Of a stretch of DNA of 64,000 nucleotides, positions 8,662 to 50,849 are shown in pieces. Under the pieces are notes generated by a model, which saw nothing but the letters and a program-made list of their open reading frames with translations, did no database searches and had not been told where the DNA came from. How positions within the stretch are numbered: the first letter of the stretch is position 1; every line of letters begins with the position of its first letter. This DNA is from Balneolaceae bacterium (GTDB lineage Bacteria > Bacteroidota > Rhodothermia > Balneolales > Balneolaceae), in assembly GCA_020832285.1 (NCBI GenBank), contig JAFIFB010000023.1:62001-126000 (forward strand), read 5' to 3'. A program made the translations under genes and the position numbers.

Positions 8662-10209
8662 ATGAATAAAGAAATAACCGCATATGCAGCCGTAAAACTT
8701 ATTCAGGACAACCAAACCGTATGTATTGGCGGGGGTGGTGCCGGCCATGCTGTACCCGATGAGATCATAAAAGCACTCGGCGCCAGATTCAGGAAAACGG
8801 GACACCCCAAGAACCTCACGATTTTACACCCCTGCGGAATTGGAGACAGTGATAAGCTGGGCCTGAACCACCTGGCCCAAGCCGGTATGCTTAAACGGGT
8901 CATCGGCGGCTTTTACGGAAACGCGCCCGATATGGTCACTCTCGCATTTGAAAATCTGTACGAAGGCTACAACTTCCCCCAGGGTGTACTGAGCCATCTT
9001 TGCCGGGCCATCGCCTCCGGTGAAAAAGGCCTTCTGACCAAAACCGGCCTCCACACTTTTGTGGATCCCCGCTACGAAGGCGGGAAAGTAAACGAGGCAG
9101 CCTCAGAAGATCTGGTTGATCTGGTAACAATCGGTGATGATGAATTTCTCTTTTACAAAACCTTCCCTGTGGATGCAGCCATCATCCGCGGCACCTCGGC
9201 CGATTCGAACGGTAATATTCTGATGGATGAAGAAGTGGGTACCTTTGCGATGCTTTCCAACGCTCAGGCAGCAAAAATAAACGGAGGCATTGTCATTGCT
9301 CAAGTTGCCCGTATAGAAGAGCCCGTCCAGATTCCTTCCAGCAGGATCAAAATTCCGGGTGCATTTGTGGATCATTTGGTAGTGGTTCCGGATCAGCCGA
9401 TGACTTACATAACGAAAAACGATCCCTCACTGATTTATCGTGATTTTGAGTGGGATTCCGGCTCTCTTACTCTGGACGGCGTTAAAGAAATTGTTGCCAA
9501 ACGGGGTGCACTTGAGCTTTTTCCCGGTGCGTTTGTGAACCTCGGCTACGGCATTTCAGATGGAATTCCAATTGTGGCGAGAGAGGAGGATTATCTCGAT
9601 GAGATCACTTTTTTCATTGAACAGGGTCCTCTCGGTGGCATTCCTACCACAGGGCTGAATTTTGGCGCGATGCACAACCCAACAGCTATCCTCGATGACG
9701 GTTACCAGTTCGACTTTTTTCATGGCGGCGGGCTGGACATCGCTTACCTCGGTTTTGCCCAGGTGGACCGTTTAGGAAACGTGAATTCGAGCCGATTTGG
9801 AAACCGCATGACCGGCTGCGGTGGCTTTATCGATATTTCCCAGCACAGTAAAAAAGTTGTGTTCTGCGGAAGTTTTGCGGTGAAGGGTGAGTTTGATTTT
9901 TCGGGTGATGGAATCAACATCATCAATCACGGGAAATATAAAAAGTTTGTGAATGATGTGGATCAGGTCACTTTTAACGGCAGATACGCCGCCGAGTCCG
10001 GTAAAGAGGTTTTGTACCTGACTGAACGCTGCGTATTCCAGCTGACAAATGGCGGCCTTCTTCTCACCGAAATTGCTCCCGGAGCTGACCTTGAAAACGA
10101 CATTCTGGCAATGATGGATTTTGATCCCGAAATCTCACGAAACCTCAAACAAATGGATGCACGCCTTTTTAACGGTGCCAAATTAAACCTGAAAGAAATA
10201 GCTTTCTGA
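8662..10209 (+). CDS. Acyl-CoA:acetate/3-ketoacid CoA-transferase, fused alpha-beta (YdiF-like)
   Basis: A 515-residue cytoplasmic class I CoA-transferase with both subunits in one chain. The N-terminal half has the glycine-rich CoA-binding region (VCIGGGGAGHAVPDEI). The C-terminal half has FFIEQGPLGGIPTTG, in which Glu320 is the expected nucleophile forming the glutamyl-CoA thioester. The family moves CoA between short-chain acyl groups such as acetate, acetoacetate or other 3-keto or branched acids. It lies 39 nt after the FG-GAP gene and 77 nt before an enoyl-CoA hydratase, suggesting breakdown of an organic acid through CoA esters. The actual acyl substrate is not determined. Confidence 0.9.
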   Translation: MNKEITAYAAVKLIQDNQTVCIGGGGAGHAVPDEIIKALGARFRKTGHPKNLTILHPCGIGDSDKLGLNHLAQAGMLKRVIGGFYGNAPDMVTLAFENLYEGYNFPQGVLSHLCRAIASGEKGLLTKTGLHTFVDPRYEGGKVNEAASEDLVDLVTIGDDEFLFYKTFPVDAAIIRGTSADSNGNILMDEEVGTFAMLSNAQAAKINGGIVIAQVARIEEPVQIPSSRIKIPGAFVDHLVVVPDQPMTYITKNDPSLIYRDFEWDSGSLTLDGVKEIVAKRGALELFPGAFVNLGYGISDGIPIVAREEDYLDEITFFIEQGPLGGIPTTGLNFGAMHNPTAILDDGYQFDFFHGGGLDIAYLGFAQVDRLGNVNSSRFGNRMTGCGGFIDISQHSKKVVFCGSFAVKGEFDFSGDGINIINHGKYKKFVNDVDQVTFNGRYAAESGKEVLYLTERCVFQLTNGGLLLTEIAPGADLENDILAMMDFDPEISRNLKQMDARLFNGAKLNLKEIAF

Positions 10210-10233
10210 ATGCATACTATAATGGGTCGTACT

Positions 10234-10256
10234 GGCGCAAGCGTCTCGCTTGTGCC
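10234..10256. repeat. Short hairpin repeat between two plus-strand genes
   Basis: GGCGCAAGCG and CGCTTGTGCC pair as a 10-bp stem (one G-T pair) around a TCT loop. There is no T-run after it, so it looks more like a small interspersed hairpin than a terminator. Confidence 0.5.
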
Positions 10257-10286
10257 TTACACCCAAACTAAACAATGTAAACTCCT

Positions 10287-11021
10287 ATGCCCTCAAACCC
10301 TTCCATTCTTAGCGAAATAAAAAACCAGGTTCTTCACGTCACCCTCAATAACCCGGAAAAGCACAACTGTTTCGGTATGGCTGAATTGGAAGCTATTCAA
10401 AAGCTTCTGCTCAGGCATCAAACCGATGCTGATGTGAAGGCAGTGGTTTTCAGGGGTGCGGGCGAACGATCATTTTCCACTGGAGCAAATCTCAAGCAGT
10501 TCACGGCTCTCGACCAGCCGGGTACAATGGAATGGATTAAAAAAGGGCATGAGGTATTCAATTTTATCGAAAATTTTCCCAAACCAACGGTTGCTGTCAT
10601 ACAGGGTTTTGCACTGGGTGGCGGGATGGAGCTCGCGCTCTCGTGTGATTTCAGAGTTGCTTCAGAAAAGGCTGTTTTCGGAAGCCCAGAGCTGCGCCAT
10701 GGCTGGTTACCGGGGTGGGGAGGCATCCACAGGCTGAAAAAATTACTGGGAGAAGCGGCTGCCAAAGAGATTATTTTCCTGGCTGAGCATGTTTCTGCAA
10801 AGAATGCCTACAGGCTTGGTTTGATTCACCGGCTCACTGCAACCGAAGCGCTTGAAGCTGAAACCATCACACTCTTGGATAAACTGCTATTGGTCCATCC
10901 TGATGCGTTTTCCATGGCGAAGGCTGCCATTTCCGAGAGTGGAGATTCCAGCCCAACTACTGCTTCTCAGGTTTGGTTTGATGTTTTGAGTACGCTCCAT
11001 TCAAAACGAAATTCGGAATAA
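10287..11021 (+). CDS. Enoyl-CoA hydratase/isomerase (crotonase) family protein
   Basis: 244 residues, the usual crotonase length. The oxyanion-hole segments are visible (STGANL around residues 64-69; GFALGGGMELALSCDF around 107-122), with candidate acid/base glutamates Glu115 (GGGMEL) and Glu135 (SPELRHGWLPGWGG). The family hydrates or isomerises enoyl-CoA thioesters. It follows the CoA-transferase, so both probably act on one acyl-CoA route in the cytoplasm. The exact reaction (hydratase, isomerase or lyase) cannot be fixed. No strong ribosome binding site is visible before the ATG, as is common in this lineage. Confidence 0.85.
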   Translation: MPSNPSILSEIKNQVLHVTLNNPEKHNCFGMAELEAIQKLLLRHQTDADVKAVVFRGAGERSFSTGANLKQFTALDQPGTMEWIKKGHEVFNFIENFPKPTVAVIQGFALGGGMELALSCDFRVASEKAVFGSPELRHGWLPGWGGIHRLKKLLGEAAAKEIIFLAEHVSAKNAYRLGLIHRLTATEALEAETITLLDKLLLVHPDAFSMAKAAISESGDSSPTTASQVWFDVLSTLHSKRNSE

Positions 11022-11033
11022 CGGGCTTCTTTT

Positions 11034-11142
11034 TTCTCGCAGATGTACGCTGATGAATACGCAGATTAACGCTGATTTTTTGATATGACCTCACATCACT
11101 TCTGCGAACATCTGCGAATAACTCTGCGAAAATCTGCGAGAA
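11034..11142. repeat. Palindromic CTGCG array, left copy flanking the GxxExxY gene
   Basis: A 109-bp array bounded by an 11-bp inverted repeat (TTCTCGCAGAT at 11034-11044 and ATCTGCGAGAA at 11132-11142). The left half holds units in reverse orientation (CGCAGAT, CGCTGAT). The right half holds four TCTGCG units starting at 11101, 11111, 11123 and 11133, spaced 10-12 bp. The first 20 bp of the array beyond its opening TT recur as a direct copy in the array at 11622. Confidence 0.85.
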
Positions 11143-11223
11143 CCCTATTTAACTTAATTTTTTTTGTAAGGTTTTCACGATTTAGGGTTCATACAATAAA
11201 AAACCCTTTAAAAATTAAAGATC

Positions 11224-11601
11224 ATGCATGAAAATGAAATCTCCTATGACATCCGTGGAGCAGCTTTCAACGTTCATTCTGCATTGGGGCCAGGACTCCT
11301 TGAATCTGTTTATGAAGCTGCCCTGGCTTATGAACTCCAAAAAATGAACTATGATGTAAAAACTCAATTGGGTGTGCCAGCGGTGTATGAAGCAGTTAAA
11401 ATGGAACAAGGTTTCAGGATGGACCTTTTGGTAAATGATAAAGTAATAGTTGAGATAAAATCTGTTGAAATGTTAATGGACGTACATTACAAGCAACTAC
11501 TCACCTATTTAAAATTATCCGGAAAAAAACTTGGGCTGTTAATCAATTTCAATTCTGCAACGTTGAAAGGTTCGATGAAGCGGGTCGTTAATAATTTGTA
11601 G
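11224..11601 (+). CDS. GxxExxY family protein (PD-(D/E)xK nuclease-like fold)
   Basis: 125 residues, full length for the family. The name-giving motif is GLLESVY (GPGLLESVYEAAL, about residues 23-35). Further on, GFRMDLLVNDKVIVEIKSVE (about 63-82) gives the D...ExK arrangement of PD-(D/E)xK nucleases. The family is widespread in Bacteroidota and other phyla, and its function is unsettled. The gene stands alone between two palindromic CTGCG arrays at 11034-11142 and 11622-11708, is unrelated to the metabolic genes on either side, and is probably a guest. Whether it nicks or binds the arrays is inference. Confidence 0.9.
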   Translation: MHENEISYDIRGAAFNVHSALGPGLLESVYEAALAYELQKMNYDVKTQLGVPAVYEAVKMEQGFRMDLLVNDKVIVEIKSVEMLMDVHYKQLLTYLKLSGKKLGLLINFNSATLKGSMKRVVNNL

Positions 11602-11621
11602 CTTTTAACTGGATTTTTTTC

Positions 11622-11708
11622 TCTCGCAGATGTACGCTGATGTATTTTTAATCAGACCATAGACTAATCTGCGAAACTCTGCGCATAACTCTGCGATAAT
11701 CTGCGAGA
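11622..11708. repeat. Palindromic CTGCG array, right copy flanking the GxxExxY gene
   Basis: An 87-bp array bounded by TCTCGCAGAT (11622-11631) and ATCTGCGAGA (11699-11708), with TCTGCG-type units in its right half. Its left arm shares CTCGCAGATGTACGCTGATG exactly with the array at 11034 and in the same orientation. It ends 7 bp before the stop codon of the convergent SDR gene. Confidence 0.85.
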
Positions 11709-11715
11709 AAAACCC

Positions 11716-12480
11716 TCACAATCTCCTCAAGTGAAACCCGCCATCTACGTTGATCACCTGGCCGGTGGAGTATAAAAAGTGGCCCGCAGCCAGCCCGGCC
11801 ACTGCCCTGGCAATATCCTCCGGGAAGCCCCAGCGCGGAATTGGCAAGCCGCCTTCACCGATAAACTGATCATATTTTTCACGAACTTTTAAAGTCATTT
11901 CTGTTCTTACGATTCCGGGGCGGATTTCATACACAAAGATCCCATCTGCTGCGAGCCTGTCGGCAAAGAGCTTAGTCATCATACTCACACCGGTTTTAGA
12001 GAGACAATACTCCCCCATCGAAATAGCTGATGCATAGGATGTCAGAGATGCAATATTCACGATCATCGGAGTCCGCTCCGGATGCTCTCTGACTTGCTCC
12101 AACATCTCTTTTGCCACAAACTGTGTCAGAAAAAACGGTCCTTTCAGGTTAACGTTCATCACTCGGTCATAGCTTTCCTCGTCGGTTTCCAAAAGATCTT
12201 TTCTCTCATTTACCGACACCCCGGCGTTGTTCACCAGAAAATCTATCCGTTCAAATTCTTTTATCGTATTCTCCACAAGTGCTGAGCGGTCTTCCTTGCA
12301 GCTCACATCGCATCGGACAAAACGTGTCTTCACCCCCTCTTTTTTGCAAAGCTCCAGAGTTTTATCCGCTTCCGCGACGATATCGGCTACTACAATATTA
12401 AATCCCTGACTGGCAAGGGCAGCGGCAATAGCCTGTCCTATTCCTCTCGCTCCGCCGGTAACAATTGCTGTTTTACTCAT
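11716..12480 (-). CDS. SDR-family NAD(P)-dependent oxidoreductase
   Basis: 254 residues when started at the ATG at 12478-12480, which places the Rossmann motif at the N-terminus (MSKTAIVTGGARGIG). Classical SDR features: TGGARGIG (8-15), NNAG (84-87), catalytic Ser145, Tyr158 and Lys162 (YCLSK). It is FabG-like in length and probably oxidises or reduces an alcohol/ketone of a sugar or acyl compound in the cytoplasm. The ATG overlaps the stop of the upstream FG-GAP gene by 8 nt (ATGAGTAA), so translation is probably coupled. A longer frame up to 12561 exists but would add an unrelated leader overlapping the neighbour. Confidence 0.9.
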   Translation of the reverse strand: MSKTAIVTGGARGIGQAIAAALASQGFNIVVADIVAEADKTLELCKKEGVKTRFVRCDVSCKEDRSALVENTIKEFERIDFLVNNAGVSVNERKDLLETDEESYDRVMNVNLKGPFFLTQFVAKEMLEQVREHPERTPMIVNIASLTSYASAISMGEYCLSKTGVSMMTKLFADRLAADGIFVYEIRPGIVRTEMTLKVREKYDQFIGEGGLPIPRWGFPEDIARAVAGLAAGHFLYSTGQVINVDGGFHLRRL

Positions 12481-15400
12481 AATTTGGGTGGGTAATAATG
12501 TAATCTTTCTGTTCATCAGCCAGGTCAATCGTCTGTGATGTCCCATCAAACCAGTAAACATCCACAGCTACCGGCCGTGTTTCTCCATACCCAAGAACCT
12601 GTGTAAAACTGTTCTGAGACCAATAGCCCGATCCCGCCTGAATATCTCTTCGCGGGCCTTTTGATCCGTCATTATATACAACCCGGATGGCAGATCCCAC
12701 CGCACTCTCATTCGAAGCCGGACCCTGTAATGTAAACCGGTATCCCCGTTTTTCGGCCTGATTTTGATAGATCATCAGCCGGTTTCCATTCTGCGATACT
12801 GCCAAGTCTGTTCGCCCATTTTTATTGAAATCTCCAAAGGCAGCACCTCTCTGCTCACCATAAATCTTGATCCCGCTCTCCGATCCGTTCATCGATGTGA
12901 AATTTCCACTGCCATCGCCAAGAAGTACCAGGCCTCTGCCGGCATCCATCCGGATCTGATTTTCCGGAACAGCAAAGAAATTCTGGCTGAGGAAAATATC
13001 TTCATTTCCGTTGTTGTTCAGGTCTGCAACACCTACATGAAATCCTGCCGAGAACTGTGCCTCTTTCGGCAGCGGACGCGCCTCGAAGTGATCGCCCCGG
13101 TTCAGAAAAACCATATGTTCCAGCGTATTGATCTCTTTATAATCTACCTCATCATACCGATGACCCAGAATTTCGCGAAGCGTGGCTGATGCAAATTCGC
13201 GATGGCTGCCCATGTGATTCAGGCTGATCTGTTGTTCCTGAAATTCGTACAATTTCCTTCGCGGCACATACTCTCCGCTGCTTCCGGTATACGCTTCGAT
13301 AATATCTATGGTACCAAAACCATCCAAATCACTAAAGTAGATGCGAATCGGCTTCCCATTTTTAAGCTGCCAGCCACTGTTCTGACCAATGTTTGCCGCC
13401 ACAATATCGGGCAGGCCGTTATTGGTAAAATCTCCAACCGCTACCCCTTTCCACCATCCTGAAAATGCATCGAGACCCATCTGAGCTGTGATTTCCGTAA
13501 AGCGGCCGTTCCGGTTTTCAAATAGCCGGAGTGTTCCCCATTCGGAGCTAACGAGCAGATCCTGCGCCCCATTTCCGGTAAAATCCGAGAAAACAGCGCC
13601 GGTAACCAAACCAAGGTTGCTGAATGTTTCCGAATTCTCCCGGTCGAACTGAAAGGTTCCATCCTGATTCCTCACCATTCTCGAGTCAGCGCTTACCGGA
13701 AACCCTCCCGGCCTGAAGCTGGCGCCTATAAAAAAATCGAGATATCCGTTTCCGGTGACATCTGCTGCTGCCAAAGGGCCTGTAGTGGAGTGGACCCCGG
13801 GAATACTGTCGGCCTGAACTGTACCATCTTCCAACATGGTAAAAATATTGACAGAAGCCACATTTAAACGGCCCTGTTCATAATTTGCTGAACCGGTCAG
13901 TAAACGCATCATTCCATTTTCTTTCCAGCCGATTAAAGCAGTCTGATCTCCCTGTGCAGTCACCGTTATTCCACTCAAAGTAATCGGATCGAATGTTTCA
14001 TCCTCGTTCGAGGCAAGTGCTGTAAGCGACCCTCCTCTTCCCGATCCCATCAGAAGCTCATCCCTTCCATCACCGTTCACATCCATCCAGGCTACACCCG
14101 GACCCATCTGACTCAGTTTGTAAGGGAGCAACGGCTGTATATCAAAATCCTGAAACGGCTCTTCGTGATGCATAAATTCACATTCGGTGCAGATCTCCTC
14201 AAACAGAGACGGTGTTTGGGCTGCCATTGCATTATCTCTGGCTGCATCCACAGAAGAAACCCTGCTTTGATCAATTTCATACATCCGGTTGGCTTGAACG
14301 GATGAAATGACGCTCTTTCTGCCATCCGGCCAGCGGATGTGAATTTCGTGCTGATCGTTCTCCGGATCAGCGGCAAACATCAGGTGTGTATCAGAACCGG
14401 AAAGATAATCCCCGCCCGATGCCACCTCTTTCTGCTGATGATGAACGGCTCCGCCAATCAATTCCACTTTGGCCCCAATTGCCTGGGTATTCGGGGATTC
14501 ACCAATCAGGCGCACAGCAATTCTTGGTGCCTTAGTCCTGTTTTCGAAAATGGCGGCTTCACGGTTCATCCGGTTCACGATCACATCCAGAACACCGTTA
14601 TTGTTGAGATCGGCAAAGGCCATTCCGTGCGACACATCCAGGTCGCGGAATCCCCAATCGGAGCTTACATCTGAAAATGTGAGGTCACCGTTATTTCTCA
14701 AAATTTTGTTCTGCTGTTCGAGCGGATCAACCAGTTCGGTAAACTCCATGAAGTATTCATCCATGTTCCGACGGCTGCGAATCATCTCAAACTGCCCGTC
14801 AATATCGAGAATATCGTAGGTGTAACCTGTATTTACGATCAGGTCTTCATATCCATTCAGGTTCACATCCATGAAGCGGGTTGCCCACGACCAACCAGTT
14901 GCTTCTGTACCGGAAAAGTAGGTGATTTCGGCAAAGGTGTGATCTTCACGCTGCAAATAGAGCGAATTTCTGTTATACATCGGCCGCTGCTGGATATCTC
15001 CGGGTACCACGGGAAGGTGCTGATCGGAAGAAGCCTGACGCTGTCTGCGTTCATGGTCAGGATCGAGCATTTCGGTCGCGAAAATATCAAGCCTTCCATT
15101 CCGGTTGATATCGGAAAAGTCAACCGCCATACAGGAGTAACTGAGGTTTCGGAACATCTGCCAGGGTGCGGCTTTAAACGTGCCGTCTCCCTGGTTTAAC
15201 CAGATTCGGTCGGGTGTATGGAAATCGTTGCAAACATAGAGATCCTGCAAACCATTGTCATTGATATCCTGAAATTTGGCCGTAAGACCCCAATCACGCT
15301 GAAGTCCCAGTGGATTTCCCTCTTCGTCCAGAAATACCTGTTCGGTATCCGTTACTTTTTCAAAAACTCCTCCTTTGTTCAGGTAGAGTTCGTCCAGCTC

Positions 15401-50760: not shown

Positions 50761-50849
50761 TTTCTCGCTGATTTTCGCAGATGAATTCGCGGTTTTTCGC
50801 TGAAATTCTGCGGGAATCTGCGTCAAACTCAGCGAAACTCTGCGAGAAA
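50761..50849. repeat. Solo palindromic CTGCG array
   Basis: 89 bp bounded by TTTCTCGC and GCGAGAAA. The left half has reversed units (CGCTGA, CGCAGAT, CGCTGAA) and the right half forward units (TCTGCGGGA, TCTGCGTCA, CTCTGCGAGAA). It has the same plan as the arrays at 11034 and 11622 but no GxxExxY gene. It lies in the gap between an amidohydrolase 3' end and the PVC-dehydrogenase 5' end. Confidence 0.8.

Follow-up and report, generated by a model that had tools for sequence, protein, structure and literature searches.

The GxxExxY gene described here and the phased short repeats around it form, in our reading, a selfish element: a minimal RecB/Cas4-like nuclease with cognate recognition arrays, whose cassette would spread by a homing-like route. 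We assign this reading a probability of about 0.5. The locus lies in a 64,000-nucleotide stretch of a Balneolaceae genome, referred to below as the window. A preliminary description had suggested a selfish mobile system resembling REP sequences and RAYT transposases, and it named three outcomes that would count against the idea: no enrichment of arrays near GxxExxY genes, arrays mainly in genomes lacking the gene, and no clean empty site. All three were examined, and none was encountered.

Organization of the locus

As originally described, a single GxxExxY gene stands between two inverted arrays that are direct copies of each other, the site lies between metabolic genes, and TCTGCG units recur every 10-12 bp. 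The copies match over 40 nt (88%) on their left side and over 42 nt (90%) on their right, and unit starts in the complete arms are spaced 10-12-10 (Table 1). The heptamer unit of this locus is CGCNGA(T/G), i.e., of the TCTGCG type. Below, a row of units is called an arm and an inverted pair of arms a doublet.

Table 1 Features of the GxxExxY locus and of a solo doublet in the window
Feature	Position	Strand	Details
Enoyl-CoA hydratase gene	10287-11021		One neighbour of the GxxExxY gene
Upstream inverted doublet (arms > and <)	11034-11142	.	Repeat search; 42-nt arms, 74% complementary
Upstream doublet, arm >	11038-11076	+	Four heptamers (CGCAGAT/CGCTGAT) with starts 10-12-10 bp apart; 24/24 conserved positions in the arm scan
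Upstream doublet, arm <	11100-11138	-	Four heptamers, 10-12-10; arm scan 23/24
GxxExxY nuclease gene, PD-(D/E)XK	11224-11601	+	125 aa; key residues E27, D67, E77, K79, Q91, Y95
Downstream inverted doublet	11618-11712	.	Direct copy of the upstream doublet; repeat search; left arm reduced to two units
Downstream doublet, truncated arm >	about 11621-11645	+	40-nt direct repeat vs 11019-11058, 88%
Downstream doublet, arm <	11667-11705	-	Complete, 10-12-10; arm scan 24/24
SDR gene	11716-12480	-	Other neighbour of the GxxExxY gene
Solo doublet without a gene	50766-50844	.	Same 10-12-10 geometry; arms 50766-50804 > (22/24) and 50806-50844 < (23/24); arm scan and pattern search

Profile searches place the protein in the GxxExxY / PDDEXK_3 family: PF13366 (E 2e-40, 138.2 bits vs a cut-off of 22) and TIGR04256 (E 1.3e-42, 144.8 bits vs a cut-off of 35) both pass their curated cut-offs, and the motif residues G22, G24, E27 and Y30 are conserved. 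Rfam returned no structured RNA at the gathering threshold in positions 10000-13000, and a known structured RNA was rejected on this result. A defence system at the locus was likewise rejected, the PADLOC matches being only weak (E 0.014 and 0.024). The conserved junction of the enoyl-CoA hydratase and SDR genes was not recovered among 99 relatives, so that empty sites were examined at other loci.

Arrays accompany GxxExxY genes and follow the protein

The window genome contains five GxxExxY genes, and all five have arrays, each with a different unit (CTCTGTG; TCnGCG/CCGCGG; TCTGCG; TCACAG-like; CAGGATT). Because of this diversity, we collected 144 distinct GxxExxY loci from a sample of the phylum, named genomes and fetched stretches; twenty 20-kb stretches from the same genomes served as controls. 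An array was called by the union of three tests: the period of 6-mers, clusters of CRCNRA(G/T) units, and repeats between the two flanks. The predicted enrichment was found, with arrays at 109 of the 144 loci, whereas control genes gave 10 of 438 and shuffles 5 of 1008; the Fisher value, 5e-74, overstates the certainty because related genomes, which are not independent, were counted as if they were. The association spans at least four phyla, and outside Bacteroidota, 18 of 19 loci were positive by the same union of tests. For 6-mers repeated at 8-14 bp spacing, the threshold was reached by 0/1560 shuffles and 2/427 control genes, and the periodicity of the window array is not a product of chance. 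This simple detector was too strict, missing degenerate arrays, and was superseded by the three-test union. About a quarter of the loci have no detectable array, and many of the test-negative loci show degenerate arrays by eye. Across loci, unit spacing peaks at 9-10 bp, and on either side of the gene most units are directed towards it (upstream 338 forward vs 158 reverse; downstream 290 reverse vs 138 forward).

GxxExxY is present in 60 of 118 sampled genomes of the window's phylum. It matched none of 50,697 phage records and only 7 of 72,556 plasmid records, and on these counts we rejected a phage or plasmid origin. In one plasmid record, from Bacteroides finegoldii (L345, 1489-1863), the gene lies between radA and a gene for an FAD-dependent protein with short intergenic gaps, possibly as a settled, array-free form. 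Three PF13366 matches (G026:C9:91047, G054:C1:72351 and G038:C22:338274) fall within an 883-aa open frame and are perhaps fusions of GxxExxY with another protein.

These data raise the question of whether an array belongs to the host genome or to the nuclease. The array goes with the protein rather than with the host: among protein pairs from different genomes, 47% share arrays at 60-70% identity and ~2% below 40% identity, the arrays of dissimilar GxxExxY genes of one genome are similar only near background, and the correlation persists in cross-phylum pairs (within-phylum permutation, 0/500). Each protein clade has its own unit type. The earlier proposal of CTGCG arrays as the repeat of GxxExxY is correct for the window locus, where it describes just one of many clade-specific units, and a single universal CTGCG repeat is rejected by the clade units CGCAGA, CACAGAG, CACGAAG, CACAAAG, CGCAAAG, CAGGATT and others. 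One clade (L005, L171, L175, L181, L190) has AATCC/CAGGATT-type units; several of its loci seem, by eye, to be adjacent to type I restriction (hsdS-like) genes. L175, L190 and L194 carry TTGTCTGAA/TTCAGACAA-like sequences at their ends.

A conserved nuclease of minimal size

The key residues listed in Table 1 are 96-99% conserved among the 144 relatives, and nearly every pair for which dN/dS could be estimated gives a value of 0.03-0.11, the exception being L121/L127, two near-identical copies borne by MITEs. Given these near-invariant catalytic residues and low dN/dS values, the predicted nuclease activity appears to be under selection. The predicted structure is a single PD-(D/E)XK domain (pLDDT 93). 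Its best solved neighbour is the Cas4 protein SSO0001 (4ic1; VIA Z 9.6, rmsd 3.2, 99 residues; Foldseek of the model against Cas4, E 6.6e-3), and the model contains the RecB-type nuclease core of Cas4. No separate DNA-binding domain and no recombinase or transposase domain was found in the GxxExxY protein; in the window protein, PF13366 is the sole significant profile, and the next, SfsA, reaches E 0.13.

Filled, empty and apparently replaced sites

Clean empty sites, the third point raised in advance, were seen at two loci other than the window's own. At the sdhC-sdhA junction of Balneolaceae, an arm-gene-arm insert of ~440-480 bp is present in G026, G054, G065, G204, G208, G200, G160 and G046, while in G038, G216, G069 and G219 the two genes are separated by just 12-16 bp, including a conserved AGGAATT; G223 holds a relic gene and G100 an apparent relic end. 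In sdhC-sdhA elements (gene starts L167, L176 and L185), the left arm extends into the codons for the N-terminus of GxxExxY (ATGCCACTAATTCACGAAAACACAAAAAAG), and array and coding sequence thus have bases in common. At a second locus, site A, the element is present in G054, G100 and G026 and survives as a relic in G038; G219 and G069 are empty, with no arm at all. At a third, site B, G026 has a left arm and a right arm, then the gene and a copy of the right arm, and G054 has only the left and right arms; this resembles the anatomy of the window locus seen in the middle of gain or loss. Such presence and absence at orthologous sites is what characterizes homing genes. No target-site duplication was visible at sdhC-sdhA or site A, where the intergenic flanks have diverged. 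Since the empty alleles of both loci hold no array, homing into a pre-existing array cannot explain the first entry there, and entry does not always need such an array.

Cassettes that appear to have been replaced horizontally, with edges in doublet centres, were found at one locus of Opitutales. The two stretches L101 and L102 are collinear over 10 kb and 9.3% diverged, and they share an identical tract of 465 bp (L101 4943-5407); the probability of such a run at the flank rate is 2e-20, and no other identical run exceeds 113 bp. The tract comprises the inner arm, the gene and the other inner arm, and it ends on both sides in the spacer that separates the two arms of a flanking doublet. A third stretch, L112, compared with L101, is 99-100% identical inside the cassette and 80-94% in the near flanks. 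In all three genomes, the cassette is 99-100% identical within collinear flanks of ~90-95%, with edges at the doublet centres. These are MAGs from separate projects, judging by the record names, which makes a shared assembly error unlikely. To judge from the alignments, the pattern at this one locus looks like the trace expected from homing or from cassette exchange at doublet centres. The signature of tract conversion into a cognate site is strong at this locus (three MAGs), weak at site A, where purifying selection could account for it, and absent at sdhC-sdhA. There, the elements diverge about as much as their neighbours with no sign of a replaced tract, which suggests that these insertions are mostly old or were passed on together with their flanks.

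Proposed route of spread

How could a single-domain nuclease and its repeats produce these states? Arms are built from degenerate heptamers, three or four in a row, set about a helical turn apart so as to face one side of the helix; they occur as inverted pairs, singly or on both sides of the gene. Several GxxExxY subunits would bind one arm as double-stranded DNA, an inverted pair of arms would bring two active sites together, and the nuclease would cut at the centre of the doublet. Host recombination might then repair the break by copying the arm-gene-arm cassette in, which would place the gene between two doublets; insertion at the doublet centre predicts that the gene ends up flanked by two doublets in direct repeat, which is the arrangement of the window locus. 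If directly repeated arms then recombined, the gene would be lost and a solo doublet left behind. The association of gene and arrays, the co-variation of motif and protein, and the filled, empty and solo states were observed here; for the element as a whole, we infer DNA binding, cutting, the repair route, mobility and the first entry into an array-less site. The suggestion of a selfish mobile system is upheld in part: the cassette bears signs of mobility, and the strongest evidence resembles homing or gene conversion, not transposition.

Tentatively, we extend this proposal to a cross-phylum class of mobile DNA in which a stand-alone Cas4-like nuclease would read helically phased heptamers by an evolving protein-to-unit code and copy its cassettes into doublets, giving rise to the solo repeats of many Bacteroidota, Verrucomicrobiota, Planctomycetota and Pseudomonadota genomes. 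On this proposal, the cognate arrays place GxxExxY, a gene of roughly every second genome sampled in the window's phylum, in mobile DNA and account for how short intergenic repeats arose in many genomes. Moreover, dozens of natural nuclease/array pairs make the recognition code of a compact 125-residue nuclease directly testable.

Solo arrays and alternative explanations

Arrays are mostly absent from genomes without the gene, as foreseen: of 118 genomes, 26 contain the pattern ACAGAG-CRCNRAG-CRCNRAG, and GxxExxY is present in 25 of these; the reversed pattern was found once. Some of these matches are arrays adjacent to genes; ~20 gene-bearing genomes also have copies away from the listed genes, as judged by coordinates. 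With a looser pattern, GCAGAK, the gene is present in every one of the 12 genomes that have at least five matches. The solo arrays that were retrieved consist of arms with four units, either alone or in inward- or outward-facing pairs, and their geometry equals that of the arms of one resident gene in G099 (9-11-9), G074 and G035 (both 10-11-10) and G031.

The expected solo repeats are present in the window (Table 1) and in other genomes, although several of the solo TCTGCG copies ride in a MITE, so that part of the dispersal is not the work of GxxExxY itself. Genome-wide, paired TCTGCG units number 32 in the window genome vs 0 for the reversed pattern, and many of the 32 sit within a MITE-like repeat (TACTGTCCAAAACG...CGTTTTGGACAGTA) with a TCTGCG doublet in the middle of the element (L014, L015, L030, L031 and several contig ends of this genome, G000). 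Many contigs of the window genome break within this doublet. In total, three MITE families carry arrays or cassettes. In Puniceicoccaceae M30B33 (L130, L131, L133, L134, L135), a multicopy element, GGGTGCATAACA, with the TIR GGGTGC(A/C)TAACAAATTTTTTCC and 9-bp target duplications has captured a GxxExxY cassette, and most of its copies are internally deleted. Another type, TATACTG...CAGTATA, carries a GxxExxY cassette in an Opitutales genome (L121 4832-5498 and L127 4832-5455).

Could the repeats instead be moved by the nuclease itself? In REP/RAYT-like transposition, GxxExxY would excise or copy arms or doublets to new intergenic sites, and solo arms would be non-autonomous offspring analogous to MITEs or REPINs. 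Solo arms and doublets do outnumber genes, with up to 16-18 strict matches per genome vs 3-9 genes; they are intergenic in 35 of 39 cases, avoid divergent promoter regions and have the geometry of the resident gene, and arm-gene-arm units have entered empty sites that had no array. However, no target-site duplication was found at the orthologous empty and filled sites, whose intergenic flanks have diverged, GxxExxY has no recombinase or transposase domain, and the solo copies of one genome are only ~70-73% alike, i.e., no burst of identical copies is seen. We consider transposition of this kind unlikely.

Less probable still is that the arrays are scars or passengers that arrived rarely, by horizontal recombination or in MITEs, and then decayed, with solo arrays as recombination remnants and a nuclease that serves another role, e.g., in host repair or defence. 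The solo doublet of G054 at site B, where relatives have the gene, the relic genes in G223 and G038, the three MITE families and the strong purifying selection all agree with such a history, which nevertheless leaves unexplained both the tracking of the protein by unit sequence and geometry and a cassette that is identical between diverged flanks and ends at doublet centres.

Helically phased heptamers also look like protein-binding sites, and they might be operators for GxxExxY or another regulator, with solo arrays marking its regulon; arm pairing that is not maintained would suit such double-stranded sites. Yet the genes around 30 solo arrays are tandem in 24 cases, convergent in 6 and never divergent, a REP-like distribution that speaks against promoters or operators, arrays lie on both sides of the gene, downstream included, and near-invariant catalytic residues are needless for a pure regulator, so that we give this possibility very little credence. 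Equally remote is a single-strand hairpin or cruciform substrate as in true REPs, in which the doublet would fold and the nuclease read the hairpin: doublets are inverted repeats, and some have perfect-copy arms (L052), but on average, the two arms of one doublet (0.69, n=34) match no better than arms taken from separate doublets of a genome (0.73, n=413). On this comparison of arms, the arrays are more likely read as double-stranded DNA than as folded single strands. The reading that we prefer to these alternatives remains a nuclease with cognate arrays whose cassette would be copied into doublets by a homing-like route.

Comparison with known systems

RAYTs are HUH (Y1_Tnp) transposases acting on folded single-stranded REPs (PMC8266576). 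The resemblance to REP/RAYT systems noted in the preliminary description is one of analogy: in both, a single small enzyme gene is flanked by cognate short repeats, these are dispersed intergenically and at 3' ends as inverted pairs and singles, and repeat and enzyme co-vary. In contrast, GxxExxY is a PD-(D/E)XK nuclease without the HUH domain (Y1_Tnp, PF01797), its units are phased heptamers, several genes with different units coexist in one genome, and hairpin pairing is not kept in the doublets. The missing HUH domain and the unkept pairing rule out true membership. A REP/RAYT-like pair does coexist in the window genome, separate from the GxxExxY arrays. A REP-like palindrome, GGCGCAAGCGTCTCGCTTGTGCC, lies at window positions 10234-10256, ~780 bp before the array locus; it has 11 matches in the window genome vs 0 for a control pattern, and one copy (G000:C24:60867) is 320 bp from a Y1_Tnp (PF01797) match at C24:61207.

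Free-standing homing endonucleases with the PD-(D/E)XK fold include I-Ssp6803I and I-Bth0305I. Homing endonuclease genes share with GxxExxY the nuclease fold, the intergenic position, the patchy distribution of filled and empty sites and apparent replacement of the gene tract between diverged flanks. The array-less empty sites seen here are unlike homing targets, and we know of no homing sites that form phased heptamer arrays on both sides of the gene and solo throughout the genome.

The Rpn (YhgA-like, recombination-promoting nuclease) proteins, also of the PD-(D/E)XK fold and formerly annotated as transposases, have been tied to DNA mobilisation (PMC5350276) and, more recently, to phage defence (PMC10327210). 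Like GxxExxY, they are widespread nucleases with several copies per genome; their Pfam families differ from that of GxxExxY. To our knowledge, Rpn genes have no cognate flanking arrays, and GxxExxY itself has had no known function. Cas4/RecB nucleases (SSO0001) provide the closest solved fold and share the E, D, ExK and QxxxY residues, whereas the window protein has 125 aa and no cysteine, hence no Fe-S cluster, and its locus has metabolic neighbours with no cas1/cas2 partner; the Fe-S cysteine ligands and CRISPR context that define Cas4 are therefore lacking. MITEs and DDE insertion sequences have comparable inverted ends and short solo derivatives, but no DDE transposase and no target-site duplication at empty and filled sites were seen here, and true MITEs carry GxxExxY arrays as passengers. 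The TAACTGA repeats of Beggiatoaceae are direct repeats located mostly just upstream of start codons, and a nuclease is not mentioned in their description (PMC4679880); on these grounds, we rejected their identity with GxxExxY arrays.

Our literature search, which mostly did not extend to subscription papers and may have missed a description there, found no account of GxxExxY with arrays. Within the literature so covered, GxxExxY and its arrays form a new type of system, because they fail the defining REP/RAYT tests, correspond to homing genes only in part and have an enzyme and repeat architecture of their own. If the proposed reading is true, they are a second answer to the REP/RAYT way of life, built on unrelated chemistry.
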